From Cupriavidus taiwanensis (GTDB taxonomy: Bacteria; Pseudomonadota; Gammaproteobacteria; Burkholderiales; Burkholderiaceae), in NCBI RefSeq assembly GCF_900250075.1, contig NZ_LT977071.1, positions 682,001 to 746,000 of the forward strand: 64,000 nt of DNA, written 5' to 3'. Of this stretch, positions 5,696-64,000 are shown one piece after another; the stretch's first letter is position 1; each line of letters begins with the position of its first letter. The notes beneath the pieces are model-generated. The model had not been told where the DNA came from, did no database searches, and saw only the letters and a program-made list of their open reading frames with translations. The translations under genes were made by a program, and so were the position numbers.

Positions 5696-5921
5696 GCCGG
5701 TGGCGCGCGCCCGTGCGCCTCATCCTTCTGCTGCGTGATGCTCCGCCAAAAGCATGAGGCAGGGGTGGCAGCGGCTTGCTACCTTCTGAGGGAAGACATC
5801 CGCACAGACCGACGCCGGCGGTTGGCGCTGGTGCGATGTCCTCCGCGCCGGGCCGCCCGCAGCCCGGCTCCGACCGCGCGGCCGATGCCATGGCCGCCCG
5901 GGTTGCCGCCGGATCGAGTCA

Positions 5922-6467: not shown

Positions 6468-6562
6468 GGGCGCAATATTGCTGATGGCCTATGCTTGATT
6501 CGCCCGGAGGCAGAAGCTGGCCCTCATTTGCAGGCTGGCCGTCCCGGGAAGAAGGGGGTCGT

Positions 6563-6877
6563 ATGGAGGCCGGACTTGAGTTCCTCGTGGTGCGCGGCTT
6601 TGCGGTGCGCGAGGGCCGGGGAAAGTGGGCGTGCTGCTTCGAGATCAGGCTCGCCGCCCATCATGAGCAAGGTTGCGGCGCGGATGGCGCCGCCGGCAGC
6701 GATGAGCCGCTGCTGTACCGGGGAGAACTGCACGGGCGCCAGTTCGATTGCGAGCTGGCCGCCGCCGATGCCGCGCGCGCGGCCGGCGAGCGCGAGGCCT
6801 TGCTGCGTGTGGAAAGCCTCAAGGCGCTGATCATCGCGCAGCATCGGCACCGCGTGCCGCCGTCACTGGTGAGCTGA
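6563..6877 (+). CDS. Hypothetical protein
   Basis: A 104-residue soluble protein starting MEAGLEFLVVRGFAV. The ATG at 6563 is preferred over the upstream ATG at 6491 because GAAGGGGG lies about 10 bp ahead of it. It reads as a short mixed alpha/beta domain with a conserved-looking YRGELHGRQFDCELAAADAA block, and ends in a basic tail. No family is recognised. It lies downstream of the receiver-like gene and ends before a strong hairpin (6904-6937). Confidence 0.6.
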   Translation: MEAGLEFLVVRGFAVREGRGKWACCFEIRLAAHHEQGCGADGAAGSDEPLLYRGELHGRQFDCELAAADAARAAGEREALLRVESLKALIIAQHRHRVPPSLVS

Positions 6878-6903
6878 ACCTGCAGGCACGCGCAGCTGTT
6901 GTG

Positions 6904-22542: not shown

Positions 22543-24366
22543 ATGAGGCGGCTTATGTTTGAAGGCTGTGCCGGCTGGCTGCACGAGGCACAAGGAAAGA
22601 CCGGGGTGGTACTGTGCGCCCCGCTGGGCCACGAGGCGATGTGGTCGCACCGGGCATGGCGGCATCTTGCCGACGATCTCGCCGCGGCCGGCATGCCGGT
22701 GCTGCGCTTTGATTATCCCTGCACCGGCGATTCCGCCGGCGCCTGCGAGGCCGCGCATTTCCTGGGCCGCGCCGCCTCGAGCATCGTCGCCGCGGCCGCG
22801 CAGCTGCGCGCGCTGGCCGGCGTGGAGCGCATCGTGCTGTGCGGGCTGCGCGCCGGCGCCAGCCTCGCGGTGCAGGCCGCCGAGGCGATGCGCTCGCATC
22901 CGGCATGGCAGGGCGGCGTTGCCGCGCTGGTGCTGCTCGCGCCCGTGGTCAACGGCCGCGCCTACTTGCGCGAGCTGCGCGCGCTGCATCTGAACTGGCT
23001 CAACAGCGTCGGGCCGACCGAGACGCCGCCACCGCCGCCGGCCGGCGCGCTCGACGTGCTGGCCTTCCGCTTCAGCGCCGACACCGTGCGCGACCTCGAG
23101 GCGCTGCGGCTCGACCGCGGCGCCAACTGCCCCGCGCCGCGCGTGCTGGTGCTCGACCCCTGGCCGGGCTCCGCCTCCGCGGCCGGCGCGCTGGCGCAGT
23201 ACTACACCGATGGCGGCGCGAAGGTCGATGCGGCCGCGTTTCCCGACTACGCCGACATGATGCAATCGGCCGAGTTTGCCGGGGTGCCGGCGCAGACGTG
23301 GCGGCAGCTGGTGCAGTGGCTGGCGCCGACACCCGCAGCGGCCGCGCTGTCGGCCGCATTGCCGGCGGCGCGCCGGCACCTGCCCGGTGCTGCGTCGCTG
23401 CGCGTGGCGGTCGATGGCGTGGTCGAAGAGTCGGTCTGGCTCGGCGCGCGGCGCCAGTTCGGCATCCTCTGCCTGCCGCGCGACGAGGCGCCCGCGCCGG
23501 TCGCGGTGATCTTCCCGAATACCGGCGGCAACCACCATGTCGGCGATGGCCGCATGTTCGTCACGCTGTCGCGACGGCTGGCAAGACTGGGCGTGGTGTC
23601 GCTGCGGCTGGACGTGTCCGCGCTCGGCGACAGCCCACGCGCGCCACGCAGCATGAGCATTTCCAAGATCTACTCGCCGGGGCCGCGCGCGGACGTAAGC
23701 GCCGCGGTCGACTGGATGCGCGCGCGCGGCTTCCGTTGCATCGTGCTGGCGGGGGTTTGCTCCGGCGCGTTCCTGAGCCTGCACGCCGCGCTGGCCAACC
23801 CCGGCGTGAACGGCCTGGTGCTCGCCAACCTGGTGAAATTCCGCTGGGACCGCGCCGACGACCGGAGCGCGGGCAAGGGCGCACGCTCGTGGCAAGGCTG
23901 GCTCTCGGCCGCGCGCCGCGGCGGCAACTGGCAGCGGGTATTGCAGGGGCAGGTGCGGATCGCCCCGCTCGCCGCGGCCATGGCGCGCCATGCATACCGG
24001 CACGCCACCGAACGCGTGGCGTTCCGCTTGACGCGGCTGCGCGGAGGCGAAGACCTGGCCTCAGCCACGGCTTACGCACGGGCCGCGATGCGGAGCCTGA
24101 ATGAGCGCGGGGTGCGGACGGACATGCTGTACGGGTCCGAGGACATGGGGCTCGATGAGGCTCAGCTGCGCTTTGGCAGGGATCTGGAAGCGCTGGCGGC
24201 GTTCACGCATATCACCGTGCATCGGCATGCGTGTATGGACCATGCGTTGTTTCTGGCGGAGGGGAGGCAGGTTTTTTGTGACCAGGTGGTCAAGCATGTG
24301 GTGGCGAGATTGGGGGCGATGGAGGCGGTGGGGGAGGGATTGTTGCGGGGGGTTAAGGTGTGTTGA
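22543..24366 (+). CDS. Tandem alpha/beta-hydrolase protein
   Basis: A 607-residue protein made of two alpha/beta-hydrolase domains in a row. Domain 1 (about 1-265) has LCAPLGHEAMWSHRAWRHLA and a nucleophile elbow LCGLRAGASLA. Domain 2 (about 285-590) has IFPNTGGNHHVGDGRMFV and the elbow LAGVCSGAFLS, so the nucleophile position is Ala-flanked in 1 (GLRAG, no Ser) and Cys-Ser (GVCSG) in 2. Domain 1 may therefore be inactive. Such hydrolases occur in EPS loci and could act on acylated sugars or carriers. GCCAGGAGG precedes the ATG. The last 50 or so codons shift to G- and T-ending codons (ttg, ggg, gtt), unlike the rest of the gene. Confidence 0.75.
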   Translation: MRRLMFEGCAGWLHEAQGKTGVVLCAPLGHEAMWSHRAWRHLADDLAAAGMPVLRFDYPCTGDSAGACEAAHFLGRAASSIVAAAAQLRALAGVERIVLCGLRAGASLAVQAAEAMRSHPAWQGGVAALVLLAPVVNGRAYLRELRALHLNWLNSVGPTETPPPPPAGALDVLAFRFSADTVRDLEALRLDRGANCPAPRVLVLDPWPGSASAAGALAQYYTDGGAKVDAAAFPDYADMMQSAEFAGVPAQTWRQLVQWLAPTPAAAALSAALPAARRHLPGAASLRVAVDGVVEESVWLGARRQFGILCLPRDEAPAPVAVIFPNTGGNHHVGDGRMFVTLSRRLARLGVVSLRLDVSALGDSPRAPRSMSISKIYSPGPRADVSAAVDWMRARGFRCIVLAGVCSGAFLSLHAALANPGVNGLVLANLVKFRWDRADDRSAGKGARSWQGWLSAARRGGNWQRVLQGQVRIAPLAAAMARHAYRHATERVAFRLTRLRGGEDLASATAYARAAMRSLNERGVRTDMLYGSEDMGLDEAQLRFGRDLEALAAFTHITVHRHACMDHALFLAEGRQVFCDQVVKHVVARLGAMEAVGEGLLRGVKVC

Positions 24367-24384
24367 GGGGGTTTTTGGTTGGGC

Positions 24385-24527
24385 GCTGTTGGTGACATGC
24401 TGTCGGCTGTTGAACCGCGTGGTTCCGCCCTGCTGGGCGGGTCACTTTTTGGCCGAGCGCCAAAACGTAACCAAAAAGCGCGTTTACTGCCCTGCGGGCG
24501 GCATGTCTTATCGTAGTGTGCCCGGGG
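24385..24527 (+). repeat. Outer left arm of a long inverted repeat
   Basis: These 143 bp are the perfect reverse complement of 26498-26640. The arm contains a hairpin core (ctttttgg ... ccaaaaag) typical of intergenic repeats of this bacterial group. The inverted similarity continues beyond the IS insertion: 25909 to about 26146 matches the reverse complement of about 26272-26498 with mismatches. The original palindrome therefore had arms of about 370-380 bp around a spacer of about 125 bp. Confidence 0.9.
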
Positions 24528-25908
24528 CCTGTCAGTTTTTTTGTGTGCAGGGCAGGTAAGGCTCACCGCTAATTCGACGGTGAACCAGCATTATCTCAGC
24601 GATGCGGATGGATGAAGCGTTCCTCATAGAGGATCGCAAACTGGTTCATGGCAGCCTTCCAATCGTGCGTGGAACTGCCCCACTTACCGGTGATGTTGCG
24701 CAGGGCCAGCCACAGTAGCTTGGTTGCTGCCTCATCACTGGGAAAGTGCCCTCGCGTCTTGATGATCTTGCGCAGCTGCGCATTGATACTCTCGATCGAA
24801 TTTGTTGTGTAGATGATCTTGCGGATCGCCGGCGGGAACGTAAAGAATGGGATCACTTGATCCCAGGCGCGATGCCAGGACGCGGCGATCGGCTTGTACT
24901 GCTGCCCCCATTTTCCTTGCTCGAAGGCCGCCAGCTCGGCCAGCGCTGCCTCCACGGTGGGCGCCGTGTACACGGGCTTAAGCGCCGCGGCTACCTCCCG
25001 GCGCTCCTTCCAGCTGACGTACTCCAGGCTGTTCCGGATCAGATGCACGATGCAGGTCTGCAGCGTCGTGTGCGGGAACACCGCGTTCAGGGCTTGCTCC
25101 ATGCCCTTGAGCCCATCGGTTACCGCGATCAGAATGTCCTGCGTGCCGCGGGTCTTCAGGTCATTGAACACCTTCATCCAGAACTTGGCGCCTTCGGTGT
25201 TCTCGATCCACAGGCCCAGGATGTCGCGGGTGCCGTCCGGCAGCACGCCCAGCGCCAGGTAGACGGCCTTGTTGCGTACCACCCCATCCTCACGCATCTT
25301 GACCCGCAGCGCATCGAAGAACACCACCGGGTACATCACCTCCAGCGGGCGGGCCTGCCAGGCAGTGACCTCGTCCATCACGGCATCCGTCACCGAACTG
25401 ATGAACTCGGGTGAGACTTCGGTGCCGTACTGCTCGGCCAGAAACGCCTGGATCTCGCGCACGGTCATGCCACGGGCGTACATGGCGATGATCTTGTCAT
25501 CGAACCCGGTGAAGCGCCGTTCGTGCTTGGGGATCAGGATTGGCGCGAAGCTGCCGTCGCGGTCGCGCGGGATGTCCACCCGCAGCGGACCGTCCTCAGT
25601 CAGGACGGTCTTGGCGCTCTTGCCGTTGCGCTGGTTGGCCGTGCCGGCCGGGCGCTCGGCACCCGGCTGGTAGCCCAGATGATGACCGAGCTCAGCGCCC
25701 AGGGCGCGCTCGATCAGCGCCTTCTTGAACGCCATCGAGGCGTCCTGAACCGCCTCGGCGGTCATCGGACCCTTAACGAAATGGGCGATCAGGTCCTCGG
25801 GAATGGCCGGCAGTTCACGGTCTGCGGCTTGGCTGGTCTTCGTCTTGCGTGGCATACATGCTCCTTGGCGACATGTTATGCCCTAAATACAAAATTTATG
25901 ACAGGCCC
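24525..25908 (-). mobile_element. Complete IS256-family insertion sequence (1384 bp) with 9-bp target duplication
   Basis: Ends are GGGCCTGTCA at 24525 and its complement TGACAGGCCC ending at 25908, extended by an imperfect AT-rich inner part (left gtttttttgt, right ataaattttgta). The 9-bp direct repeat GTGTGCCCG flanks it at 24516-24524 and 25909-25917, as expected for IS256-type transposition (8-9 bp). It inserted into the left arm of the long inverted repeat. The intact duplication and transposase indicate a recent event. Confidence 0.92.
24596..25855 (-). CDS. IS256-family (mutator-type) transposase
   Basis: A 419-residue full-length transposase. Acidic catalytic residues fit FFDALRVKM, AVTDGLKGM and TTNSIESINAQLRK. 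The typical block CIVHLIRNSLEYVSWKERRE with the C/H region is present. The protein starts MPRKTKTSQAADRE and ends near the left IS end. Codon use resembles the host. It appears functional. Confidence 0.95.
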   Translation of the reverse strand: MPRKTKTSQAADRELPAIPEDLIAHFVKGPMTAEAVQDASMAFKKALIERALGAELGHHLGYQPGAERPAGTANQRNGKSAKTVLTEDGPLRVDIPRDRDGSFAPILIPKHERRFTGFDDKIIAMYARGMTVREIQAFLAEQYGTEVSPEFISSVTDAVMDEVTAWQARPLEVMYPVVFFDALRVKMREDGVVRNKAVYLALGVLPDGTRDILGLWIENTEGAKFWMKVFNDLKTRGTQDILIAVTDGLKGMEQALNAVFPHTTLQTCIVHLIRNSLEYVSWKERREVAAALKPVYTAPTVEAALAELAAFEQGKWGQQYKPIAASWHRAWDQVIPFFTFPPAIRKIIYTTNSIESINAQLRKIIKTRGHFPSDEAATKLLWLALRNITGKWGSSTHDWKAAMNQFAILYEERFIHPHR

Positions 25909-26497
25909 GTGTGCCCGGGGGTTTTCGTACGGGGCTGGGCTTCCTCGCATAGCGGGACTGCCTGCCGCAGGGTGCACCACGGTGGCGGGGGCGTTGAAGT
26001 GGTGATTGAACGAGCCCAGAGCGCGGAGTGGTCCCTGCTGCGGGCCTTACCGTAGGAACGCCTACGGCTGCGCTTCGCGCCGGCCCTATCGCGCGGCGTG
26101 GGCCCTGGCACTGGACGCATCGCTGCGCTCGCTTGGCCCATGCGGTGCGCGCACGTGATTCCGATTCCCGTGGTGTGTGTAGGCCAGCCGCCAACATCAA
26201 CCCGGGACGCCTGCAGATGGATTACGCCGGTTGCACGTGGCTTACGGAATTCAGAATCCGACGGGCGTGGTCCCTGCAGCGCCGAGCGAGCGCAGCGACG
26301 CGTTCAGTGCCGGTGCCCAAGCTCCGCGATAGGGCCGGCGCGCAGCGCAGCCGAAGGCGTTCCTACGACAAAGCCAGCAGCAGGGACCACTCCGCGCTCT
26401 GGGCTCGTTCAACCATCATTCCAACGCCCCACCCACGGTGGTGCCCCCCGCGGCAGGCAGTCCAGCTATGTGAGGAAGCCCAGCCCCGTACGAAAAC

Positions 26498-52869: not shown

Positions 52870-54156
52870 TTACTCCAGCAGCGTGCGCGGATCGGTGATG
52901 CGGCCGGTGACGGCGCTGGCGGCCACCGTCATCGGCGAGCCCAGCCACACCGCGCTGCCGGCGTCGCCCATGCGGCCCGAGAAATTGCGCGCGGTCGAGG
53001 CAATCGCGCGGCTGCCGGCCGGGAAGCGCGCCGCGCCATAGCCGGCGCAGGCGCCGCAGGCATTGGGCAGCAGCATCGCGCCGGCATCGGCGAGGATGGC
53101 GAGCGTGCCTTCCTGCTCGGCCTGCAGCTGGTCGCGGCGCGAGGCCGGCGCCACCTGCAGCATCACGCCGGCGGCAACGCGGCGTCCGCGCAGCACGCGC
53201 GCGGCCATGCGCAGGTCTTCCAGCTTGGCGCCGGTGCAGGCGCCCAGGTAGGCGATCTGCACCGGCTCGCCGGCGGCCCGGTCGACCGGCGCGCTGTTGG
53301 CGGGCGAGTGCGGCGCGGCCACCTGCGGTGCCAGCCCAGCAGCGTCGAAGCGGTGCGCGGACAGCACCGGCGCACCGGCATCGCTGCGCCAGTGGTCCAG
53401 GTCGATCGCGGCCAGCGTCTGCGCCGGCACGCCGGCCTGCGCCAGCCATTCCAGCGTGACCGCATCGGGCGCGACCAGTCCGGTCTGCGCGCCGAGCTCG
53501 GTGCTCATGTTGGTGAGCGTCATGCGCTCCTGCATCGGCAGCGCGGTGACGGCGCTGCCGGTGTATTCGAGCGCCTGGTAGCGCCCGCCGCCCATGCCCA
53601 GCGTGGCGCACAGGAACAGCATCATGTCCTTGGCGCACACCCCGGGCGCGAGCTGCCCGTCCCATTGCAGCCGGATGGTGTCCGGCACCCGCAGCCAGAT
53701 CTCGCCGGTGGCGAGCACGCCGGCCATCTCGGTCGCGCCCACGCCGAACATGTAGGCGCCGAAGGCGCCGCCGGTGGGGCTGTGGCTGTCGCCGCCGACG
53801 ATCAGGCGGCCCGGCAGCACATGGCCGCGCTCGGGCAGCACCACATGGCAGATGCCCTCGGCGTCGATGAAGTGCGCGCCGGCCTGGCGCGTCCAGTCGC
53901 GCGTGAAGCGCAGGATCGATTCGGATTCGGCGTCGCCGCCCGGCACGAAGTGGTCGGTCACCACCACATAGCGCGACGGGTCCCACACCCCGGTGCCCAG
54001 CTCCTGCAGCAGCGGCGCCACGCGGCGCGGGCCGCTGGAATCATGCGACATCGCCAGGTCGACCTGGCAGATCACCACGGCGCCGGGCTCGGCATGCGCC
54101 AGCCCGGCGGCACGGGCCACCAGCTTCTGCGCGAGCGTGGCGGGGACGGGGCTCAT
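52870..54156 (-). CDS. Isopropylmalate-isomerase/aconitase-type large subunit
   Basis: A 428-residue catalytic subunit. The three [4Fe-4S] cysteines fit LGACTGAK and NACGACAGYG. The active-site block GGDSHSPTGGAFGAYMFGVG is typical (HxxP-type variant). Its length matches the short LeuC2/homoaconitase-like branch. It overlaps the substrate-binding-protein gene by 4 bp (ATGA), so the transported compound is probably its substrate. Confidence 0.88.
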   Translation of the reverse strand: MSPVPATLAQKLVARAAGLAHAEPGAVVICQVDLAMSHDSSGPRRVAPLLQELGTGVWDPSRYVVVTDHFVPGGDAESESILRFTRDWTRQAGAHFIDAEGICHVVLPERGHVLPGRLIVGGDSHSPTGGAFGAYMFGVGATEMAGVLATGEIWLRVPDTIRLQWDGQLAPGVCAKDMMLFLCATLGMGGGRYQALEYTGSAVTALPMQERMTLTNMSTELGAQTGLVAPDAVTLEWLAQAGVPAQTLAAIDLDHWRSDAGAPVLSAHRFDAAGLAPQVAAPHSPANSAPVDRAAGEPVQIAYLGACTGAKLEDLRMAARVLRGRRVAAGVMLQVAPASRRDQLQAEQEGTLAILADAGAMLLPNACGACAGYGAARFPAGSRAIASTARNFSGRMGDAGSAVWLGSPMTVAASAVTGRITDPRTLLE

Positions 54157-55202
54157 TCCGGCGACGCCCCCGAATACTTGACCACGCCCGCCCAGCGCTT
54201 GACGTCCTGCTTGACGAACGCGGCGAAGGCCTCGGGCGGCGTGCCCATCGGCTGCGCGCCGTCGTTCTCCAGGCGCTTGCGCACCGCGGGAGACTCCAGC
54301 CCCTTGCGCGCGGCCTGGTACAGCGCCTGGGTGGTCTCGTGCGGCATGCCGGCCGGGCCGAACAGCCCGAACCACGCGCTCGACTCGAAGCCCTTGACGG
54401 TATTGCCGATCGGCGCCGCGCCCGGGAACTGCGGCAGCGGCGCGGGACTGGTCACGCCCAGCACCTTCAGCTTGCCCGCGCGCACGTGCGGCAGCACGTT
54501 GATGGTGCTGGCGAACATCAGGTCGCACTGGCCCGCCAGCACGTCGGTCAGCGCCGGCGAGGTGCCCTTGTACGGAATGTTGACGATGTACGTGCCGGTC
54601 ATCATCTTGAACATGTCGCCGGCCATGTGCAGCGACGAGCCGACCGAGCCGATGGCGAAGTTCAGCTTGCCAGGCTCCGAGCGCGCCAGGCGGATCAATT
54701 CGGGCACGTTGTTGGCCGCCAGCCGGGGCGTGGCCACCAGCACGCTGGGCACGGTGGCGACCAGCGTGATCGGCGTGAAGTCCTGCACCGGGTCGAACGG
54801 CAGCTTCTTGTACAGCGTGGCGTTGATGGTATGGCTGGTGAAGCTCATCAGCAGCGTGCTGCCGTCCGGCGCGCTCTTGGCGACCAGGTCCGCGGCGATA
54901 TTGCCGCCGGCGCCGGGGCGGTTCTCGACCACCACCGGCTGGCCCAGCTCCTGCGACATCTCCTGGGCGATGGTGCGCGCCAGCGTGTCGGTGGTGCCGC
55001 CGGCCGGCGCGCCCACCAGGATCCGGATCGGCTTGCCGCCGGCAAGCTGCGCCTGGGGCTGGCCTTGGGCCTGCGCGGCGGCCGACAGCGGCAAGGCCAG
55101 CGCGCACGCGGCCAGCGAGCCGAGCGTGGCAAGGCGCCGCATCGTGGCGCGGCGCGGAATCGAAGGCAGGCGGGTCAGGCTGGACGGACGGAATTCAGGC
55201 AT
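54153..55202 (-). CDS. Tripartite tricarboxylate transporter substrate-binding protein (Bug/TctC family)
   Basis: A 349-residue periplasmic receptor. The signal peptide ends near AAAQAQ. Family blocks are PIRILVGAPAGGTTDTLART, VENRPGAGGNIAADLVAK and YKGTSPALTDVLAGQCDLMF. Bug proteins are very numerous in Burkholderiales and bind carboxylates. No TctA/TctB membrane genes are nearby, so it may work as a sensor or share a remote transporter. It is the first gene of the isomerase operon. Confidence 0.92.
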   Translation of the reverse strand: MPEFRPSSLTRLPSIPRRATMRRLATLGSLAACALALPLSAAAQAQGQPQAQLAGGKPIRILVGAPAGGTTDTLARTIAQEMSQELGQPVVVENRPGAGGNIAADLVAKSAPDGSTLLMSFTSHTINATLYKKLPFDPVQDFTPITLVATVPSVLVATPRLAANNVPELIRLARSEPGKLNFAIGSVGSSLHMAGDMFKMMTGTYIVNIPYKGTSPALTDVLAGQCDLMFASTINVLPHVRAGKLKVLGVTSPAPLPQFPGAAPIGNTVKGFESSAWFGLFGPAGMPHETTQALYQAARKGLESPAVRKRLENDGAQPMGTPPEAFAAFVKQDVKRWAGVVKYSGASPE

Positions 55203-55308
55203 GGCGGCGGTCCTCGCTCGATGTGATCAGGGATGCGCAGTATGGCGCGGAACGGGGTCCGGCGCACCCCCGCCAACGCAAGCCCGGGGCAACTCCCGTG
55301 GCGTCATC

Positions 55309-55341
55309 GCGAGTCAATCGCGAGTCAATCGCGAGTCAATC
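55309..55341. repeat. Three tandem 11-bp repeats across the end of the GntR gene
   Basis: The unit GCGAGTCAATC occurs three times in a row (55309-55319, 55320-55330, 55331-55341). Each unit carries the complement of TGA. The third includes the gntR stop codon (55336-55338). It looks like a slippage expansion of the gene end. Confidence 0.85.
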
Positions 55342-56121
55342 GCGCAAGCCCGGGCGGGTCTCGCTCTCGACCCAGACGTTGGCGCTGTCGACGCCGGCTG
55401 GCGACAGTTCCATCCGGTACTCGTAGCGGTCCGGGCGATACTGGCCCAGCAGCAGTTGCACCGGACGCCCGGACTGGTCCTTGACCACGCGCCGCACCGC
55501 CAGCAGCGCGCCGCCGACCGGCACGTCCAGCAGCGGCGCGACCACCACGTCGGCCAGCCGCGCCGACAGTACCTGGCTGGCACGGCCGAGCTTGATGCCG
55601 CCCGCTTCCAGCAAGCGCAGCACCGGGGTCTCTTCCAGCGCCTGGCGCGTGATCGGCCGCCCCAGCGCCGCCGGCAGGTAGACCGTGATGTGCGACAGCG
55701 GACGGTTGCGGTAGTGGCGCACGCGCACGATCTTCACCACCGGGTCGCCCGGCTCGATCTGCAGCGAGTCGGCGACATCGGGCGTGGCATGGACTTCATC
55801 GATCGAGATCACCTTGACCGAGGTCTTCTGGCCCATGTCGATGATGTTGTCGAGCAAGCTGGTGCCGCGCTCGTCGCCGGCCGCCGCGGCCGGGCGCACC
55901 GGATGCGGGTTGACGAAGGTGCCGAGGCCGCGATGGCGGCGCACCAGCCCTTCCTGCACCAGCCGGTCGAACACGCGCCGCATGGTCACGCGCGACGCGT
56001 GGAACTGCTTGGCGAGGTCAATCTCCCCGGGCAAGGGACCCTGGCCGAAGCGGCCTTCGACGATCTGCTGGCGCAGCACCACGTAAATCTGGTGATACAG
56101 GGGAACGACGGCTTCACTCAT
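55336..56121 (-). CDS. GntR-family (HutC subfamily) transcription regulator
   Basis: A 261-residue regulator with an N-terminal winged HTH (LYHQIYVVLRQQIVEGRFGQ, RVTMRRVFDRLVQEGLV) and a C-terminal UTRA ligand-binding domain (about 90-255). It is encoded upstream of and in the same direction as the isomerase/receptor genes, and most likely controls them in response to their substrate. A 133-bp gap separates them. Confidence 0.92.
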   Translation of the reverse strand: MSEAVVPLYHQIYVVLRQQIVEGRFGQGPLPGEIDLAKQFHASRVTMRRVFDRLVQEGLVRRHRGLGTFVNPHPVRPAAAAGDERGTSLLDNIIDMGQKTSVKVISIDEVHATPDVADSLQIEPGDPVVKIVRVRHYRNRPLSHITVYLPAALGRPITRQALEETPVLRLLEAGGIKLGRASQVLSARLADVVVAPLLDVPVGGALLAVRRVVKDQSGRPVQLLLGQYRPDRYEYRMELSPAGVDSANVWVESETRPGLRD

Positions 56122-56816
56122 GGTTTCCCTTGTGGAGAGATGACAAGTCTGTAATGCCTCTAATGTACTTTAAATCAGACATAGGGCCTAGCGAGGATAA
56201 ACGCTGAGGCGTTTCCGCGACAAGGGCCGGGTGCGGGTGCGACGCTGCGCCAAGGCGCAGCCGGGCATTGTGCCGGATTCGCTCCGTTGCGCCGGCAGCG
56301 TGCCGGCCGGCCGGTGATGCCCCCGCGATGGCCGCGGCGCGGACTTGCCCATGCCGCCAGCGTCGCGTGAAGCCGGCAATGTGGCGCGGCCCACATGGGC
56401 GGCGGCGGCGACACCGCCGGCCGCATGTTTCAACGCCGATACGCGGCCGGAGCATCAGGGCAAATCCCGACCGGGCGCTGCAAGTCTTTGAAAACCAAGG
56501 CTTTCCTGGCAGGCGCCAAAGGGCACCAAGAACCCGATGGGACCCCTCTGTCACAGCAATGTGACATGTCCCCGGCCGCACATCGGCGCGGCCCCATGTT
56601 GATCCGGCAAAACATCGGCAAAAACCGAGCCCGCAACGCCAGGTGGCCCTTGTAATACAAGGACTTGCCGCTCCAGGTGACGAAGCTGGCACCGATTATG
56701 CGCAGGGCAGGCTGGTTTGGCCGCAAGCCTGACCTGAATCTTCCGGCCGCGCTCGTCGATGAGTGCCGGCCAGGAGCTGAGCCGCTGTGAACGTGAAATC
56801 CTCCTGGGAGCATCGT
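56122..56816. promoter_or_regulatory. 695-bp divergent region GntR / Fap-like cluster
   Basis: It holds the promoters of gntR (leftward) and of the surface-protein cluster (rightward). A dyad TGTCAC-agcaat-GTGACA is at 56549-56566, 250 bp before the glycine-rich gene. A short hairpin AAACGC-tgag-GCGTTT is at 56199-56214. Open frames here lack ribosome-binding sites and are not called. The long leader suits a tightly regulated matrix gene. Confidence 0.5.
56549..56566. promoter_or_regulatory. Operator-like dyad upstream of the Fap-like cluster
   Basis: TGTCAC and GTGACA form perfect 6-bp arms with 6 bp between them. This spacing is seen for dimeric regulators of the Crp and GntR types. The arms differ from the classic Crp site (TGTGA-N6-TCACA), so the binding protein is unknown. 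Confidence 0.45.
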
Positions 56817-58388
56817 ATGAACAAGACAATTCTGGCGTCGGCGATTGCCCTCGCCTTTGCTGGTTCGGCGTGGGGTAACCCGACCAATACCAACACGGAT
56901 GGCTGGAACCATCAGACCGCCACCGCCAATTCAAACCAAAGCGGCGCCGGGTCCCTGGCCAATGAGAACTCGACCTCCAACCAGGACAACTCCGATCACA
57001 GCACCAGCACCCGCACCAGCACCCGCACCACCACGGTCGACGTTGCGGTGGACAAGTCGACCAACGACTCCAACAACCGCACCAACTCCAACAACAAGAG
57101 CAAGACCAACTCCGACAACCGCACTCGCCTGACGCTGGACCAGGGCGGGCTGGGCAATGCCGCCGCCAACGCGGGCAACGCCTCGTCGAGCATCGCCAAT
57201 TCCTTCAACACCAGCAAGGCGATCGCGGTCAGCAAGCTCAGTGGGCAGGTCACCGGCAATACGGTCGCCAACATCGGCAACGTGGCCAAGAACTTCGGTA
57301 ACGCCAACGGCGGCACCGGCTTCGGCGGCAAGGGCGGCACCGGCGGCAACGGCGGTACCGGCGCGGGCGGCGTGGGCGGCAACGGTGCTGCCGGCGCGGT
57401 CGGTGCGGTGGGCGCCAAGGCCTATGCCTATAACGGCGGGGCTCGCGCCGGCGATGCCACCACGGGCAGGGCCGTGGGCGGCGACGGTGGCGATGGTGGC
57501 GCCGCGATCGGCTGGGGCGGCGATGGCGGCAGCGCCTATGGCAAGGGCGGCAGCGCGCTCAGCGCCGCGGGCAGCAAGGGCGGCAGCGGCGGTGATGCCT
57601 ACGGCAAGGGCGGCGGTGCTCTGAGCGCCTCGCTTGGCGCGGGCGGCCGTGGCGGCAGCGCCGGCGCGATCGGCGGCGGCGGCCTGGGTGCCAGCGGTGC
57701 CCTGGGTGGCCTGGCCGGTTCGGCCGGCGGCGCGGGCGGCAGCGGCGGCGATGCCAACGGCCGAGGCGCGGATGCCGGCGGTACTGGCGGCGCTGGTGGC
57801 GGTTCCGGCGCGGCCGGCACCAACACGGCGGGCGCGGGCACCGGCACGGGCGGCGGCGCGGGTGCCACCGGCGGTGCGGGCGGCTCCGGCAGCTCCGGCT
57901 CGGTCGCGACCGGCGGCGCCGGCAGCGGCACCGGCGGTGCGGGCGGCTCGAGCGGCGCGGGCGCGACCGCGACGGCTGGCAACGGCACGGCGACCGGCGG
58001 TGCCGGCGGCGCGCAGAGCAGCACCGGCGGTGCCGGCGGCGCGGGCGCGGCAGCTACCTCGGGTGCTGCCACGGCGATGGCGTCGAACGGCAGCGCCACC
58101 GCTGGTGACGGCGGCGACGGCGGCAACGGCGGCAACGGCGGCAGCGGCGGCGCGGCCACCGGCGGTACCGGCGGCACCGGTGGCGTGGGCAATGGCGGCG
58201 CTGGCGGTACCGGCGGTGCTGGTGGCTACAACCTGGTCGACGCAGGCACCTTCAACATGTCCAACACCATGACCAGCGTTGGTCAGACGGCGGCGGGCAT
58301 CATGATGGCCAGCCAGAACAGCGGCGTGGCTTCGCTGGTGCAGCAAAGCGTGAACGTGCAGGCCAACCTCAACGTGGGCGGCAGGTAA
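56817..58388 (+). CDS. Secreted glycine-rich fibre-like protein
   Basis: A 523-residue exported protein. The signal peptide is MNKTILASAIALAFAGSAWG. An Asn/Ser/Thr-rich part (22-105) and a Gln/Asn segment (LDQGGLGNAAANAGNASSSI) follow. A very long Gly/Ala repeat region (about 168-470) has GGxGG units. The C-terminal end has the motif SQNSGVASLVQQSVNVQANL. The ending and the neighbours (C39 peptidase, OM barrel) resemble functional-amyloid (Fap) clusters, where such a protein would be the major fibre subunit. It is longer than FapC. GGGAG precedes the ATG. A GC hairpin follows at 58401. Confidence 0.75.
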   Translation: MNKTILASAIALAFAGSAWGNPTNTNTDGWNHQTATANSNQSGAGSLANENSTSNQDNSDHSTSTRTSTRTTTVDVAVDKSTNDSNNRTNSNNKSKTNSDNRTRLTLDQGGLGNAAANAGNASSSIANSFNTSKAIAVSKLSGQVTGNTVANIGNVAKNFGNANGGTGFGGKGGTGGNGGTGAGGVGGNGAAGAVGAVGAKAYAYNGGARAGDATTGRAVGGDGGDGGAAIGWGGDGGSAYGKGGSALSAAGSKGGSGGDAYGKGGGALSASLGAGGRGGSAGAIGGGGLGASGALGGLAGSAGGAGGSGGDANGRGADAGGTGGAGGGSGAAGTNTAGAGTGTGGGAGATGGAGGSGSSGSVATGGAGSGTGGAGGSSGAGATATAGNGTATGGAGGAQSSTGGAGGAGAAATSGAATAMASNGSATAGDGGDGGNGGNGGSGGAATGGTGGTGGVGNGGAGGTGGAGGYNLVDAGTFNMSNTMTSVGQTAAGIMMASQNSGVASLVQQSVNVQANLNVGGR

Positions 58389-58400
58389 GACGCGCAACGC

Positions 58401-58432
58401 GGCCGGACCCCGGGCTTGCCCCGGGGCCGGCC
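58401..58432. terminator. GC-rich hairpin after the glycine-rich gene
   Basis: GGCCGG with CCGGCC and an inner CCCCGGGC/GCCCCGGGG make a strong stem with a 2-nt loop and small bulges. There is no T-run. It could dampen transcription into the next genes, giving more major subunit than helper proteins. Confidence 0.5.
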
Positions 58433-58568
58433 GGCGGTTTCGCAGTCATGCCGGCAGGACCGGCGCCCGCATCCTGTGTGCGGGCGCCCGGGCCCTGTCA
58501 TGCCTACGCAAGCCAAGTTGCCATGCAGCCGAGTGGAGAGAGTCGGCGCATCGGCAGGGGGGAACACC

Positions 58569-58982
58569 ATGCAACCGGTCCGCTTCGCCGTCGGCACCTT
58601 TGCCGCGGCATTACTTGCCTGGCCAGCATTGCCGGCCCATGCGGAGCCGCCAGGGCTGGAGGCCGCCATGGCCGCGGCGCGCGCTGACGCTGCCGCGCCC
58701 ACCGCACCGGCACCTGCGCCGGCCGCGCTGTTCGCCGGCGCGGCCAAGGCCGTGCCCGTGTCGCGGCTGGATGATGTCCGCGGCGGTGCGGAGGTCACCG
58801 TCAACGATATGCGCCTGCACGGCACCGTGGCCGACAACGCCGCGGTCAATACCTTGTCCGGCACGAACCACATCACGGAAGGCGCGTTCTCGAATGCGGC
58901 CGGGATTCCCACCGCGATCCAGAACTCGGGATCGAACGTGCTGATCCAGAACGCCACCATCGTCAACGTCCAGTTCAAATGA
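58569..58982 (+). CDS. Secreted Fap-like protein with internal double-glycine motif
   Basis: A 137-residue exported protein. A signal peptide (residues 1-25, ends AHA) precedes an Ala/Pro-rich linker and the motif SRLDDVRGG with Gly72-Gly73. Leu is at -7 and Val at -4 relative to the end of the double glycine, as in leaders cleaved by C39 peptidases. The rest, ITEGAFSNAAGIPTAIQNSG followed by NVLIQNATIVNV, has the Gln-Asn pattern of Fap-type subunits. The gene overlaps the C39 peptidase gene by 4 bp. Cleavage after GG is inferred, not shown. Confidence 0.75.
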   Translation: MQPVRFAVGTFAAALLAWPALPAHAEPPGLEAAMAAARADAAAPTAPAPAPAALFAGAAKAVPVSRLDDVRGGAEVTVNDMRLHGTVADNAAVNTLSGTNHITEGAFSNAAGIPTAIQNSGSNVLIQNATIVNVQFK

Positions 58983-59680
58983 TGAAGCCGTTGCGAATCC
59001 TGCTGGCATGTGTCCCCTGGCTGCTGGCCGGGGCGCACGTGCCCGGCGCGCAGGCCGCCGACGTCGCGCTGTACGGTCCGGTGGGCGAGCCCTACAGCGT
59101 CAGGGTCACCAGCATCCGCGAGGCGCGCTTCAAGTCCACCATCCGCCAGCAGTATGACTTCAGCTGCGGCTCGGCCGCGGTGGCCACGCTGCTGACGTAC
59201 CAGTACGGCCATCCGATCAACGAGGCCACGGTGTTCCAGAACATGTACCTCAACGGCGACCAGCAGAAGATCCGCGCCGAGGGGTTCTCGCTGCTGGACA
59301 TGAAGCGCTTCCTGGCCGCCCTGGGCTATGAGGCGGATGGCTTCGAGGTGCCGCTGTCCAAGCTGGAAGAAACGCAGGTGCCGGCGATCGTGCTGATCGT
59401 CGAGAACGGCTACCACCATTTCGTGGTGGTCAAGGGCGTGAAGGGCGACCGCGTGCTGGTCGGCGATCCGGCGCGCGGCACGCGCGCCATGTCGCGCGAG
59501 CAGTTCGAGCGCATCTGGGACAGCCAGCTGCTGTTCGTGATCCACAACCGCACCGACCGCGCGCGCTTCAATGTCGCCGCGGACTGGCGCGTCGCGCCCA
59601 GCGGTCCTTACTGGATGGGCGTCAACCGGGACAACCTGTTCTTCACGGTCATGCCCCGCCATGGCACCGGAGATTTTTGA
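58979..59680 (+). CDS. Periplasmic C39-family cysteine peptidase (FapD-like)
   Basis: A 233-residue protein with a signal peptide (1-27, ends AQAAD). It is a stand-alone peptidase domain without ABC-transporter parts. The catalytic residues fit Gln57 (RQQYDFSCGS), Cys63, His147 (GYHHFVVV) and Asp163 (VGDPARG). In bacteriocin systems C39 domains cleave after Gly-Gly; FapD of the amyloid system is of the same type. The genes on both sides encode proteins with a GG motif, so they are its probable substrates. It overlaps the upstream gene by 4 bp. Confidence 0.9.
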   Translation: MMKPLRILLACVPWLLAGAHVPGAQAADVALYGPVGEPYSVRVTSIREARFKSTIRQQYDFSCGSAAVATLLTYQYGHPINEATVFQNMYLNGDQQKIRAEGFSLLDMKRFLAALGYEADGFEVPLSKLEETQVPAIVLIVENGYHHFVVVKGVKGDRVLVGDPARGTRAMSREQFERIWDSQLLFVIHNRTDRARFNVAADWRVAPSGPYWMGVNRDNLFFTVMPRHGTGDF

Positions 59681-59690
59681 GGAACGCATC

Positions 59691-60620
59691 ATGTTGCAGA
59701 CTTCCTTGCCGCCCCCGGCCGTGCCACGCAGCGCCGCCTCGGCGGCCGCGGCGATGGTGCTGGGCGCCGGCCTGGCGTACGCCGGCACGGCACAGGCCGG
59801 CATGCCGCCGCAGCCCGGGGCAGCCGATGCCGCGGCGCCACCGGCGCAGGCCGCCATGGCCGCGCGCGAGCGCGGCGACTCCCACCCTGTGGCTGCCGCG
59901 CGCGGCAGCATGGCCGGCTGGAAACCGGTGGCACATGAAAAGCTCGACGACATGCGCGGCGGCTTCGAGATGCCGGGGCTGCAGGTTTCGTTCGGTATCG
60001 AACGCGCGGTGTATATCAACGGCGACCTGGTGGTCGCTACCAGCATTAACATCCCGGACATCAGCCGCATCACTGCCGACCAGGCCGCGCGGCTTGCCGC
60101 GACGCTGGGGCCAGCCATCGTGGCCAGCACCAATGCCGCGGTGGCCAACGCGCTGGCAGGCAATCCGGTCACGGCAGACGCTGCCGCGGCGATGAATGCC
60201 AATGGCGCCGGCGCGGCGGCATCGGCTGCGGGTGGTGCTGGGGCGGGAAGCACGGCTTCGGCAGCGGCCAACGGCGGCGCCGCAGCCAGTGCTGGTGCGG
60301 CGGGAGGCGGCACGGCCGCAGCAGGCGCGGCAGGCGCGACCGGTGCGTCGGGCCCGCCGACCACAGTCGTAAGTACCGCCACCGGCCAGGTCGTGACCAA
60401 CGGGCTGCTGAACGTGATCCAGAACGGCCCGGGCAATGCGGCATCGGTGGGGGCGCTGGCGGGCACGCCAGTGACAGTGATCCAGAACACGCTGAACAAC
60501 CAGAGCATCCGGAGCCTGATGACAATCGACGCAAGCGTCAATACGCTGCAGGCCTTCCGGTCGCAACTGGCCAACACGGCGCTGAACAACGCGCTGCTGC
60601 GGGCCGCAAGCATGAGATAG
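59691..60620 (+). CDS. Secreted Fap-like protein with internal double-glycine motif (second)
   Basis: A 309-residue exported protein. An N-terminal signal-like region (to about residue 37) precedes the motif HEKLDDMRGG with Gly90-Gly91. The following block is FEMPGLQVSFGIERAVYING, then an Ala/Gly-rich middle (about 150-225). The C-terminal part has VIQNGPGN and VIQNTLNNQS. The LDDMRGG motif matches LDDVRGG of the protein at 58569 at equivalent positions. GAGG lies 6 bp before the ATG, 10 bp after the peptidase stop. Function unknown; a minor fibre subunit or a chaperone are options. Confidence 0.75.
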   Translation: MLQTSLPPPAVPRSAASAAAAMVLGAGLAYAGTAQAGMPPQPGAADAAAPPAQAAMAARERGDSHPVAAARGSMAGWKPVAHEKLDDMRGGFEMPGLQVSFGIERAVYINGDLVVATSINIPDISRITADQAARLAATLGPAIVASTNAAVANALAGNPVTADAAAAMNANGAGAAASAAGGAGAGSTASAAANGGAAASAGAAGGGTAAAGAAGATGASGPPTTVVSTATGQVVTNGLLNVIQNGPGNAASVGALAGTPVTVIQNTLNNQSIRSLMTIDASVNTLQAFRSQLANTALNNALLRAASMR

Positions 60621-60694
60621 CCGTTAGCGAGGTAGCGGCAGTACAGGTCGCGGGCTCCTGCAGAACAGCCTGCCGTCCGGGGGAGGAAGACGCG

Positions 60695-62125
60695 ATGAAG
60701 AAGCGGTCGATGCAGGGCATCCGCAATGCGGGATGCTCGACGTTGCTGTTGCTCGGCGGACTGGCGCAAGCCCAGACGCCGCCGGAGGCGGGGCCGCCCG
60801 CGGCCGGACTGGAATCACTGCAGAGGGAACTCGCCGAGCAGGCCAGCCAGCTCGATGCCATGAAGCGCGCGCTGGCCGAGCAGGAGGCAGTGATCCGCGA
60901 ACTGCGCAGCGTGATCGGCACCGAGGTGCTGGCCGCCAAGCGCGGCGGACAGCGATCCGGGCCCGGCGTGATGCCGGCCGACAACGCCACCAACGCGGCC
61001 ACCGCGGCAGCTGCGGCCAGTGCCACGCAGGGCGCGCCGGGCCTGGGCAGCAGCCCGCAGCAGGTCATGGCCCAGGCGCCGCAGGCCGGGGCGCAGCAAG
61101 GCGAGTCGGCCAGCCCGCAGACGGTGGCCGTGGAAGAGCCCGTGGGACGTCCGCCCGAGACTGACCGACGTCCGCCAGAGATCGCACCGCTGATCGACCA
61201 GCCCGGGGTGCTCACCGCCGAGGGCAAGCTCGTGGTGGAGCCGGGCTTCCAGTACGGCTACTCATCGAACAACCGCGTCGCGCTGGTCGGCTACTCGATC
61301 ATTCCGGCCATCCTGATCGGGCTGATCGATGTGCGCGAGGTCAAGACCTCGACCTATATCGAATCGATCGCGCTGCGCTACGGCGTCACCAAGCGGTTCG
61401 AGATCGAGGCCAAGGTCCCGTACGTGCAGACCTCGGGCTCGACCATCAGCCGCGAGGTGTTCACCGGCACTGCCGTCGACAACGTGTTCAATTCCAGCGG
61501 CAAGGGCCTGGGCGATGTCGAGGCGACGGTGCGCTACCAGCTCAACTACGGCAACGAGCGCATCCCGTACTTTGTCGGCTGGCTGCGCTACAAGTCCGCC
61601 ACCGGCAAGGACCCGTTCGAAGTGGTGACCGATTGCGTGACGCGCTGCGTCGGCAATACCACCGGCACCGGCCTGCCGCTGGGGCTGCCCACCGGCACCG
61701 GCTTCCAGGCGATCCAGCCCGGCATCACCTGGCTGCTGCCGACCGATCCGGCGGTGTTCTTCGGCACCTTCAGCTACCTGCACAACTTTGCGCGCAACAA
61801 CGTGAGCCGCACCGTGCTGAACGGCGAGAAAGAGAACCTGGGCAAGATCGCGCCGGGCGACATCTTCGAGTTCAGCTTCGGCATGGGGCTGTCGCTCAAC
61901 GAGAAGGCATCGTTCAGTATCGGCTATGACCAGGCCATCATCTGGCCGACCAAGCAGAACGGCATGACCGTGCCCGGCTCGGTGCGCGTGACCCAGGGCA
62001 CCTTGTTGGTGGGATATTCGTACCGCTTCAACAACCGCTATACGCTCAACCTGTCGGTGGGCGCGGGGCTGACGCGCGACACGCCCGACCTGCAGGTCAA
62101 TGTGCGCCTGCCGATCACTTTCTGA
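60695..62125 (+). CDS. Outer-membrane barrel with N-terminal coiled coil (FapF-like exporter)
   Basis: A 476-residue protein. A signal peptide (ends LAQAQ) precedes a coiled coil (about 38-75, LESLQRELAEQASQLDAMKR), a Pro/Gln linker, and a C-terminal beta-barrel (about 170-476) with alternating aromatic strands (VEPGFQYGYSSNNRVALVGY, IESIALRYGVTKRFEIEAKV) and a final Phe. This layout matches FapF, the trimeric pore that exports amyloid subunits. Two Cys in a loop (VTDCVTRCVGN) could form a disulfide. Genes of this type are often misannotated. It ends the cluster. Confidence 0.85.
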   Translation: MKKRSMQGIRNAGCSTLLLLGGLAQAQTPPEAGPPAAGLESLQRELAEQASQLDAMKRALAEQEAVIRELRSVIGTEVLAAKRGGQRSGPGVMPADNATNAATAAAAASATQGAPGLGSSPQQVMAQAPQAGAQQGESASPQTVAVEEPVGRPPETDRRPPEIAPLIDQPGVLTAEGKLVVEPGFQYGYSSNNRVALVGYSIIPAILIGLIDVREVKTSTYIESIALRYGVTKRFEIEAKVPYVQTSGSTISREVFTGTAVDNVFNSSGKGLGDVEATVRYQLNYGNERIPYFVGWLRYKSATGKDPFEVVTDCVTRCVGNTTGTGLPLGLPTGTGFQAIQPGITWLLPTDPAVFFGTFSYLHNFARNNVSRTVLNGEKENLGKIAPGDIFEFSFGMGLSLNEKASFSIGYDQAIIWPTKQNGMTVPGSVRVTQGTLLVGYSYRFNNRYTLNLSVGAGLTRDTPDLQVNVRLPITF

Positions 62126-62328
62126 ACGCCATGATGCAGACGTGACGCGTGCCCCGCCCGGGCAGGACACGCGTGCGCGTCACATGCGCCGGCACCGTGC
62201 GCCAGCGCCGAAACGCGCCTTGCGCTGGCCCCATGAACGGCGTACAAAGAAATAACCCCGCGCCGCCAGCGGTACTTTCCGACCAGCCTCAACCTCACCG
62301 GTGGTGCGGCCTGTACAAGGAGAGAGAC

Positions 62329-62841
62329 ATGCGCAAACGCATCTTCTGGTTGTTGCCCGACCTGGCGAGTGCCCGACGCACCATGGATGACCTGCTGCTG
62401 GCCCGCGTCGAGAACCGCCACATCCACTTCGTGGCGCGCGACGGTGCCGACATGACCGGCCTGCATGAAGCCAACCTGTTCCAGACTTCCGACATCGTCC
62501 ACGCGGCCGAGATGGGCCTGATGGTCGGCGGCGGCGTGGGCGTGGTGGCCGGCGTGGTGGTGGCGATGTTCCCCATCGTCAGCGACACCCCGCAGTGGGG
62601 GCTGGTCGGCGTGCTGGCGGTGCTGGGCGCGGTGTTCGGGGCCTGGGCCGCAAGCATGATCGGCAGTTCCGCCCCCAACAGCCGGCTGCGCGCGTTCGAG
62701 AAAGACATCGAGGCGGGCAAGATCCTGCTGATGCTGGACGTGCCGCGCAGCCGCGTGGAAGAAATCGAAACCCTGCTGCGCAACGCGCATCCGGAAGCCA
62801 GCTTCGCCGGCGTCGATCCGGCCGTGCCGGCGTTTCCCTGA
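62329..62841 (+). CDS. Conserved membrane protein (DUF1269-like)
   Basis: A 170-residue protein starting MRKRIFWLLPDLASARRTMD. A soluble N-terminal part is followed by two adjacent membrane helices with Gly-rich faces (about 63-105, GLMVGGGVGVVAGVVVAMFP, GVLAVLGAVFGAWAASMIG) and a C-terminal soluble part ending FAGVDPAVPAFP. AAGGAGAGA lies ahead of the ATG at 62329. It is found widely in beta-proteobacteria; its role is unknown. Confidence 0.75.
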   Translation: MRKRIFWLLPDLASARRTMDDLLLARVENRHIHFVARDGADMTGLHEANLFQTSDIVHAAEMGLMVGGGVGVVAGVVVAMFPIVSDTPQWGLVGVLAVLGAVFGAWAASMIGSSAPNSRLRAFEKDIEAGKILLMLDVPRSRVEEIETLLRNAHPEASFAGVDPAVPAFP

Positions 62842-62921
62842 TCCGGCGCTTGCCGCCGGCTGGCGCCACCTGGCGTCGCATGTCTCTTTGCGCGCGCGCC
62901 CGCGCGGGCGCGCTCCGGCCG

Positions 62922-62948
62922 CACCGGAACCGTCCCCCGGTTCCGGTG
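62922..62948. terminator. Terminator-like hairpin
   Basis: CACCGGAACC (62922-62931) and GGTTCCGGTG (62939-62948) form a perfect 10-bp stem with the loop gtccccc. No long T-run follows. It ends the transcript of the membrane protein gene. Confidence 0.65.
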
Positions 62949-63089
62949 TGATGCCGCTGCAACACCCCCTGTTTTCCCGGTTTGCCCCCGTCGGACGCAT
63001 GCGGTACCTTGCGTGACGGCGTCCGGGCCCTGTCCGCGGCGTCGCCACAAAATAACGAAAGCAGCCGTCCAGGCAGAGGGGTCGAGACA

Positions 63090-64000
63090 ATGAAGGCGAA
63101 ATGGATCGCGTGCGGCGTGCTGGCCGTCACGCTGGGGTGGGCCGCGCATACGGCCCAGGCGGAACCGGGCGTGACCCGCAGCACCATCCGCATCGGCCAG
63201 TCGGCCGGCATCACCGGGCCGGTGGCGGGCTCGGTCAAGGAGCAGATCGCCGGCGCACAGGTGTACCTGCGCACGGTCAATGCCAACGGCGGCGTCGCCG
63301 GCCGGCGCATCGAACTGATCACCTACGATGACGGCTTCGATGCCAAGCGCACGCCCGACAACGTGCGCAAGCTCCTCGACGAAGACCAGGTGTTCGCGCT
63401 GTTCATGGTGCGCGGCACGCCGCAGAACGAAAGCATCCTGCCCATCATCGCCGCGCAGAAAGTGCCGCTGATCGCGCCGCTGACCGGCGCCATCACGCTG
63501 CACCGGCCGGTGAACCGCTACGTCTTCAACGTGCGCGCCAAGTACCAGGACGAAGTGGCGCGCGCGATCAATCACCTGGCGACCTCGGGCATGAGCCGCA
63601 TCGGCATCTTCTACGCCAACGACGGCTTCGGCCGGGACGTGCTGGAAGGCTACAGCAACGCGCTGCAGGCGCGCGGCGTGCAGCCCGCGGCGACGGTCAA
63701 CTTCGCCCGGCCCATGGGCGACATCAGCCAGGGCGTGGCGGCGATGCACAAGGCCAACCCGCAGGCGGTGCTGGTGATCGGCTCGGGCTCGGAAGCGGCG
63801 CGCGTCATCCGCGAGCTGCGCCGCGCCGGCAGCGAGGCGCAGTTCGTGACCCTGTCCAACAACGCTGCCGATGCCTTTATCCGCGAGCTCGGCGACGACG
63901 CGCGCGGCCTGATCATCACGCAGGTGGTGCCGGGCACCAACTCCAGCCAGATGACGCTGGCCAGCGAATACCGCAGCCTGGCGAAGCAGCAGGGCGTGGA
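63090..64000 (+). CDS. ABC transporter substrate-binding protein, branched-chain amino acid type (3' truncated by window)
   Basis: The frame is open from ATG 63090 to the window end (303 codons). A signal peptide (MKAKWIACGVLAVTLGWAAH ... AQA) is followed by a type I periplasmic-binding domain: GVTRSTIRIGQSAGITGPVA, GGVAGRRIELITYDDGF, and IGIFYANDGFGRDVLEGYSN. Such proteins capture amino acids, amides or aromatic acids in the periplasm. GAGGGG precedes the start. The permease and ATPase genes, if present, are outside the window. Confidence 0.9.
   Translation, partial: MKAKWIACGVLAVTLGWAAHTAQAEPGVTRSTIRIGQSAGITGPVAGSVKEQIAGAQVYLRTVNANGGVAGRRIELITYDDGFDAKRTPDNVRKLLDEDQVFALFMVRGTPQNESILPIIAAQKVPLIAPLTGAITLHRPVNRYVFNVRAKYQDEVARAINHLATSGMSRIGIFYANDGFGRDVLEGYSNALQARGVQPAATVNFARPMGDISQGVAAMHKANPQAVLVIGSGSEAARVIRELRRAGSEAQFVTLSNNAADAFIRELGDDARGLIITQVVPGTNSSQMTLASEYRSLAKQQGV

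Follow-up and report, generated by a model that had tools for sequence, protein, structure and literature searches.

The closest described relatives of the locus considered here are the Fap systems, which comprise a Sec-exported C39 peptidase (FapD), a coiled-coil barrel (FapF) and glutamine/asparagine (Q/N) repeat proteins, of which FapB and FapC carry three Fap repeats each as a rule (PMC3792158). The target of FapD was described as unclear in 2017 (PMC5557850), its substrate as 'yet to be determined' in 2018 (PMC6173800), and a review of December 2025 words its role as 'thought to process' (PMC12822426). FapD and FapF are likely members of two larger families of proteins (PMC3792158) and homologues of their genes adjoin in five additional phyla (PMC6173800); the pairing of such a peptidase with such a barrel is therefore not itself new. 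Here we describe five neighbouring genes at 56817-62125 on the forward strand of a 64,000-nucleotide stretch of Cupriavidus taiwanensis DNA (the window). Their order resembles that of Fap C-D-E-F, and they encode a Gly-rich exported protein, two precursors with an internal L-x-x-x-R-G-G motif (GG1 and GG2), a free C39 peptidase and a coiled-coil outer-membrane barrel. We consider it likely that they form a separate Fap-related surface-fibre cluster, in which the peptidase would cut GG1 and GG2 behind L-x-x-x-R-G-G in the periplasm, with export through the FapF-like pore.

Several strands of earlier work point towards such a reaction in Fap. Cys38 of FapD and periplasmic FapD are required for FapC secretion, no peptides were detected in the first ~70 residues of FapE, and Rouse and colleagues suggest that FapD might also cut FapF near GG/GA motifs (PMC5557850). 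Processing of the FapE N-terminus by FapD has likewise been proposed already, with no cut site or conserved motif given in the available portions of the two sources (PMC5557850, PMC12822426). A literature search, to which subscription journals were partly open, returned no title or abstract opening in which a conserved cut motif of FapE is named.

The peptidase of the window scored 86.6 bits against Pfam Peptidase_C39 (cut-off 22), which places it among C39 domains, and matched NCBIfam C39_FapD with 146.8 bits (E 5.7e-43; equivalog cut-off 330) and FilB with 135.6 bits (E 2.1e-39; cut-off 475), both scores lying below the respective cut-offs. Cys63, His147, Asp163 and Gln57 were unchanged across 64 of 64 aligned relatives, and the cysteine named in the original prediction was found at that position in the translation. 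Its AlphaFold model, confident for approximately residues 60-190 but not at the ends, has a core that matches C39 domains, and among solved structures the double-glycine peptidase domains LahT150 (6mpz), PCAT1 and ComA are the nearest, by sequence as well as by model. These comparisons establish the enzyme, at the level of homology, as a relative of FapD and FilB with an intact Cys-His-Asp triad. The barrel protein is, by the same kind of comparison, clearly a FapF homologue: it scored 136.6 bits (E 9.9e-40) against NCBIfam FapF, below the equivalog cut-off of 700, and its best match to the FapF crystal structures reached 4.4e-27 over residues 162-475. FilC gave 36 bits (4.7e-9), below its cut-off of 630. 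The predicted structure, which has a mean predicted local distance difference test score of 65 and is therefore to be used with care, shows one long helix at residues 38-83 and, after a linker of low confidence, strands from residue 179 onwards.

Double-glycine substrates share the spacing L(-7), hydrophobic(-4), G(-2), G(-1), and the motifs of the cluster fit it. The glycines at positions 72 and 90, to which the original prediction had pointed, are the first of each pair, the motifs ending at residues 73 and 91. A search of 35 same-genus genomes returned the peptidase in 33, at E below 1e-100; it was not found in G011, which is 54% complete, or in G023. Its neighbours are kept in those 33 loci and in the loci of two other-family genomes (L064 and L065), save that the low-complexity Gly-rich gene gave no tblastn match in three of the 33 (L035, L037, L039). 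RGG was retained in all 33 same-genus loci in both GG1 and GG2, encoded by R-G-G codons that differ synonymously; loss of the motif beside the peptidase, which the original prediction had named as an outcome that would refute it, is thus not what the genus shows. Over all 35 loci it was present in every GG2 and in 34 GG1 proteins. The distance of the motif from the N-terminus varies considerably, ending at residue 45-284 in GG2 (80-284 within the genus), with RGG constant, and at residue 56-133 in GG1, where the value of 133 for L045 is doubtful and 94 likelier; start codons for these positions were chosen by script and are doubtful for L055, L057 and L063 (GG2) as well as for L045 (GG1). In one further locus (L123, ~5670-6900) the FapE-like protein lies behind 287 residues resembling a membrane anchor and coiled coil, with NELGQIRGG at the junction, and this arrangement, like the retention of RGG at a shifting position, makes sense if the motif is a cut site. 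Shuffling yielded [LM]..[VIMLA]RGG in 17 of 20000 permutations of GG1 and 167 of 20000 of GG2; a chance motif can be rejected, as RGG is conserved both genus-wide and clade-wide, and we take this conservation, which together with the homology is demonstrated by the alignments, to be a stronger argument than the shuffle statistics. The GG2 motif region is duplicated in L058.

The survey beyond the genus links GG2 to FapE. A class-wide search for the FapD family returned 65 places in 49 of 369 genomes, and in the 40 that were fetched the gene right behind the peptidase carried RGG in 14 (L116-L129) and RG[R/K] in 15 (L101-L115), no such gene being found there in the other 11 (L130-L140); a barrel lay within 5 kb of the peptidase in 37 of the 40. 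RGG also follows the peptidase on two Polymorphobacter plasmids and in Croceicoccus and Photobacterium, with VGR instead in Indioceanicola. The GG2 motif and this peptidase clade, whose co-occurrence across genomes had been put forward as a check, accordingly accompany one another as far as Alphaproteobacteria and Vibrionaceae. Among 80 named loci of FapD relatives, which include Stenotrophomonas, Lysobacter, Aeromonas, Vibrio and others, a script located RG[R/K] at residues 41-71 of the gene product behind the peptidase in 71, and reading added three more (L150, L157 and L208, each MRGR); three Acidithiobacillus-type loci (L175, L182, L196) have VGR, L142 and L202 end near a contig edge, and L217, which matched the wrong place, received no call. 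Two of these genes, from Stenotrophomonas and Aeromonas loci, matched the NCBI FapE model at 4.9e-23 and 2.4e-13, both below its cut-off. Among the FapE homologues in the matches listed, a loose RG[R/K/S] pattern was present in 225 of 230 (the other five being three with annotated starts inside the motif, one MCGR and one fragment), in a sample that covers 7997 scored candidates in one search and 120 of 143 matches in another and is biased towards the motif, since the protein searches seed from words that include it. One protein found in this way, P0231 of Pseudomonas sp. TH05, reached 339.9 bits with the FapE model, whose cut-off is 250, and reads SELSQMRGR followed by Y.

GG2 itself had no NCBIfam match at E 0.1 and falls below the FapE equivalog cut-off. 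When a FapE profile of 10 sequences was compared with a GG2 profile of 13, however, the two aligned over 33 columns including the motif (hhalign 96.0%, E 4.8e-9), pairing RGG|F of GG2 with RG[R/K]|[Y/F] of FapE. From its position behind the peptidase and from this alignment at the motif, we judge GG2 to be FapE-like. The RG[R/K]|[Y/F] element of FapE is then the best candidate for the FapD site. A second LRGG was seen at the extreme C-terminus of the FapE-like protein of L120 (5603-6115).

The two forms of the motif are partitioned in the peptidase phylogeny. In a tree of 78 peptidases the clade of the window (31 rows; ultrafast bootstrap 95, Shimodaira-Hasegawa-like approximate likelihood ratio test 99) comprised 30 rows with RGG and the long branch of Indioceanicola with VGR, the Fap clade (39 rows, support 100/98) had G-R/K in every row, and two motif changes occur over the whole tree; a quick tree of 80 rows gave the same split. 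Besides the window itself, the 78-row tree drew on 10 same-genus loci out of 33, on 19 of the 80 named loci and, from the plasmid collection, on L221, L223, L224, L225, L227 and L228, with L226 left out. L130 and L135 had no row, and L138, L222, L070, L139, L217 and L153 were removed because they formed long branches, nearly duplicated another row or were identical to one. Position 65 of the aligned peptidases is Ser throughout the 27 GG rows, and 36 of the remaining 37 have Ala there. Ser65 was nonetheless rejected as a strict marker of GG substrates: Indioceanicola (L225) combines Ala65 with VGR, yet L114 pairs Ser65 with RGK.

A detailed comparison of these features enables us to propose a model for the cluster. 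All five proteins would reach the periplasm by Sec, as judged from their N-termini (signals were assigned by eye and with a crude hydropathy score), where the peptidase would recognise L-x-x-x-R-G-G and cut behind the second Gly of GG2 and GG1. We infer cleavage, export and fibre formation, the freed mature parts leaving through the FapF-like pore with the Gly-rich protein as candidate main fibre subunit. Removal of the pro-region would then act as the licence for assembly or secretion. The Gly-rich protein had no Pfam or NCBIfam match at E 0.1, and its C-terminal module is kept in relatives. In the barrel protein, [K/R]RG stands directly behind the coiled coil in all 33 same-genus loci, the next residue being G in 31 and M in two, and a cut in this pore linker might conceivably regulate the gate; outside the genus, RGG was seen in the barrel protein of few other loci.

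Several points weigh against this model. The first concern GG1, whose homologues have a C-terminal Fap-like repeat in common with a weak FapB-like match (hhalign 38.7%), on account of which GG1 was dropped as a clear FapB homologue. These homologues keep L and mostly R-G at the motif, and the final residue varies. RGG is present in three of 11 aligned rows, the window included, the rest reading RGT, RGM, RGR, RAK, RGQ or SGR; outside that alignment L124 has RGM, L127 has SGR and L116 is without such a motif, in L120 no GG1 gene was found on reading the locus, and L064, from another family, is the RGR exception among the 35 loci. The peptidase offers a further difficulty: charge complementarity to the R/K before the cut was looked for, and positions 101 and 120 run the opposite way, most residues there being acidic in the GG clade but basic in the Fap clade. 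Moreover, the partition of motif and peptidase amounts mostly to one evolutionary event and thus to co-occurrence rather than repeated co-change. R or K as the last residue before the proposed Fap cut is also unlike known double-glycine sites. Finally, one report has FapD modifying FapC (PMC10638192), in conflict with another that found no processing of FapA-D (PMC5557850).

The original prediction of Gly-Gly in both precursors therefore stands for GG2 and for Cupriavidus GG1, but fails for most GG1 homologues outside the genus; in further loci the GG1 motif is SRGG in Photobacterium, AGK in Polymorphobacter and AGR in Croceicoccus. This raises the possibility, which overlaps with our model and which we hold tentatively, that GG2 alone is cut and that the motifs of GG1 and the barrel are a docking site or a relic. 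The RGG of all 14 clade GG2 genes in the class loci, set beside its absence from most GG1 relatives, and the GM in place of GG in two of the 33 barrel proteins would both fit, whereas the unbroken retention of RGG in GG1 within the genus, with varying codons, is harder to accommodate.

Among relatives L and mostly R-G of the motif are kept, but its final residue may be G, R, K, T, M or another, which also invites the idea that the peptidase merely docks on L-x-x-x-R-G and holds unfolded substrates uncut, like the degenerate C39-like domain of HlyB. The invariance of the catalytic residues described above, together with the abolition of FapC secretion by FapD C38A (PMC5557850), makes this improbable.

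It remains to ask whether the cluster is simply a divergent true Fap operon. The likeness is considerable, extending from the homologous peptidase and pore and the shared D-E-F order to a FapE-like gene that directly follows the peptidase and carries a homologous L-x-x-x-R-G element. The differences, however, are consistent. The cluster site is RGG rather than RG[R/K], the peptidase sits in a separate clade, the candidate fibre protein, rich in Gly, has just one C-terminal module, a second GG protein is encoded before the peptidase, and the pore linker contains an RGG. GG1 and the Gly-rich protein have one repeat-like module each, in place of the three of FapB and FapC, and no sixth exported gene that could be FapA appears in the open reading frame list for 54000-64000, in a survey that included no search with a FapA model. 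When compared with the FapD, FapE and FapF models, as had been suggested at the outset, none of the window proteins reached an equivalog cut-off, and the peptidase and barrel scores were far below. Furthermore, three same-genus genomes (G001, G020, G022) carry this cluster alongside a Fap-type cluster (L066-L068) with RGK, repeat FapB/FapC-like proteins and a peptidase inside the Fap clade, and G071, from another family, has one RGR locus (L105) and one RGG locus (L129). As both clusters occur in the same three Cupriavidus genomes, we regard the cluster as a separate system; on the cut-offs, the tree and this coexistence we reject membership of Fap itself, which we rate as unlikely. The view of the locus as a divergent Fap-like system thus holds as regards the homology of peptidase and barrel and the similar gene order, but what it describes is a related branch and not the Fap family proper.

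Comparison with other C39-based systems leads in a similar direction. The putative Fil pilus system of Acinetobacter (FilA-F) shares homology through FilB and FilC, yet FilB falls in another peptidase group, and in the Fil locus L221 no GG1- or GG2-like gene was seen, the exported protein before FilB having MDDAALSAATGQ behind its signal; with the FilB and FilC scores below their cut-offs, membership of Fil was rejected. The PCAT/AMS transporter peptidases (LahT150, PCAT1, ComA) have the same C39 fold and catalytic residues, but the cluster peptidase is free, with a Sec-type signal of its own and no ATP-binding cassette transporter domain, and the motif of the precursors ends 45-284 residues from the start (35 loci) rather than near the N-terminus. 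That the cargo is a bacteriocin-like or autolysis peptide, as in the Neisseria nap island (NapP/NapF), which by the paper's description brings together small cationic GG peptides, a C39 peptidase and a relative of FapF (PMC11798529), is very improbable, given that the present cluster combines a fibre-like, Gly-rich protein with mature parts that are repeat proteins containing Q/N.

Beyond the separate fibre cluster, we hold a broader proposal to be about as likely as not: that the periplasmic C39 peptidases accompanying FapF-type pores and FapE-like partners read a common leader grammar, a Sec signal followed by L-x-x-x-R-G-[G/R/K], the GG versus G-R/K split reflecting a change of specificity and the FapE site lying behind MRG[R/K]. 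The split tracks the peptidase clades, with an apparent second switch in the alphaproteobacterium L225, on a long branch. Such a related branch, retaining the textbook double-glycine site at the FapE position, would make the homologous FapE element an exact predicted cut site in the model amyloid system. If correct, double-glycine processing would no longer be confined to the cytosol but would also occur in the periplasm, downstream of a Sec signal, and Sec signal, GG-type leader and FapF pore together would constitute a two-signal route of general use by which fibres, and perhaps peptides, are exported.

The features of the cluster are collected below; on reading of the open reading frames and translations, the five genes and their make-up agree with those first reported.

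Table 1. Genes, predicted cut sites and catalytic cysteine of the cluster, in window coordinates.
Feature	Position	Strand	Description
Gly-rich exported protein	56817..58388	+	523 aa from ATG; FapC position; one C-terminal Q/N module (QTAAGIMMASQNSGVASLVQQSVNVQANL)
GG1 precursor	58569..58982	+	137 aa; Sec-like N-terminus, pro-region, LDDVRGG, one Fap-like repeat (ITEGAFSNAAGIPTAIQNSGSNVLIQNATIVN)
GG1 LDDVRGG motif	58767..58787	+	Predicted cut after residue 73; RGG in 33/33 same-genus loci
C39 peptidase	58979..59680	+	233 aa; Sec-type N-terminus; FapD/FilB homologue; start overlaps GG1 stop
Catalytic Cys63 of peptidase	59165..59167	+	With Gln57, His147 and Asp163 invariant in 64/64 aligned peptidases
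GG2 precursor	59691..60620	+	309 aa; FapE-like; Sec-like N-terminus, pro-region, LDDMRGG then F, Gln/Asn-containing C-terminus
GG2 LDDMRGG motif	59943..59963	+	Predicted cut after residue 91; RGG in 35/35 aligned loci
Coiled-coil outer-membrane barrel	60695..62125	+	476 aa; FapF homologue
LAAKRGG of barrel protein	60929..60949	+	Directly behind coiled coil; third candidate site, overlooked in the original prediction

Scans for promoters and terminators gave no signal above chance. Other arrangements of exported proteins with free C39 peptidases were encountered in the survey. On plasmid pTR11_4 of Acinetobacter sp. TR11 (L222), an exported protein whose Sec-like N-terminus is followed by a bacteriocin-type leader (ELSNQEMKDTQGA|V) adjoins such a peptidase (404-970 and 1410-2033). 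In L133, L139 and L140, with a barrel nearby, the region upstream of the peptidase encodes small exported proteins in which [Q/D]MD-x-[V/I]-x-A-G closely follows the signal, perhaps another substrate class. Behind the cluster in the window, 62329-62838 encodes a 170-aa membrane-type protein with a weak DUF1269 match, below the cut-off. The G+C content, ~0.70 for the window, falls to 0.62 at 24001-26000 and to 0.61 at 1-2000.

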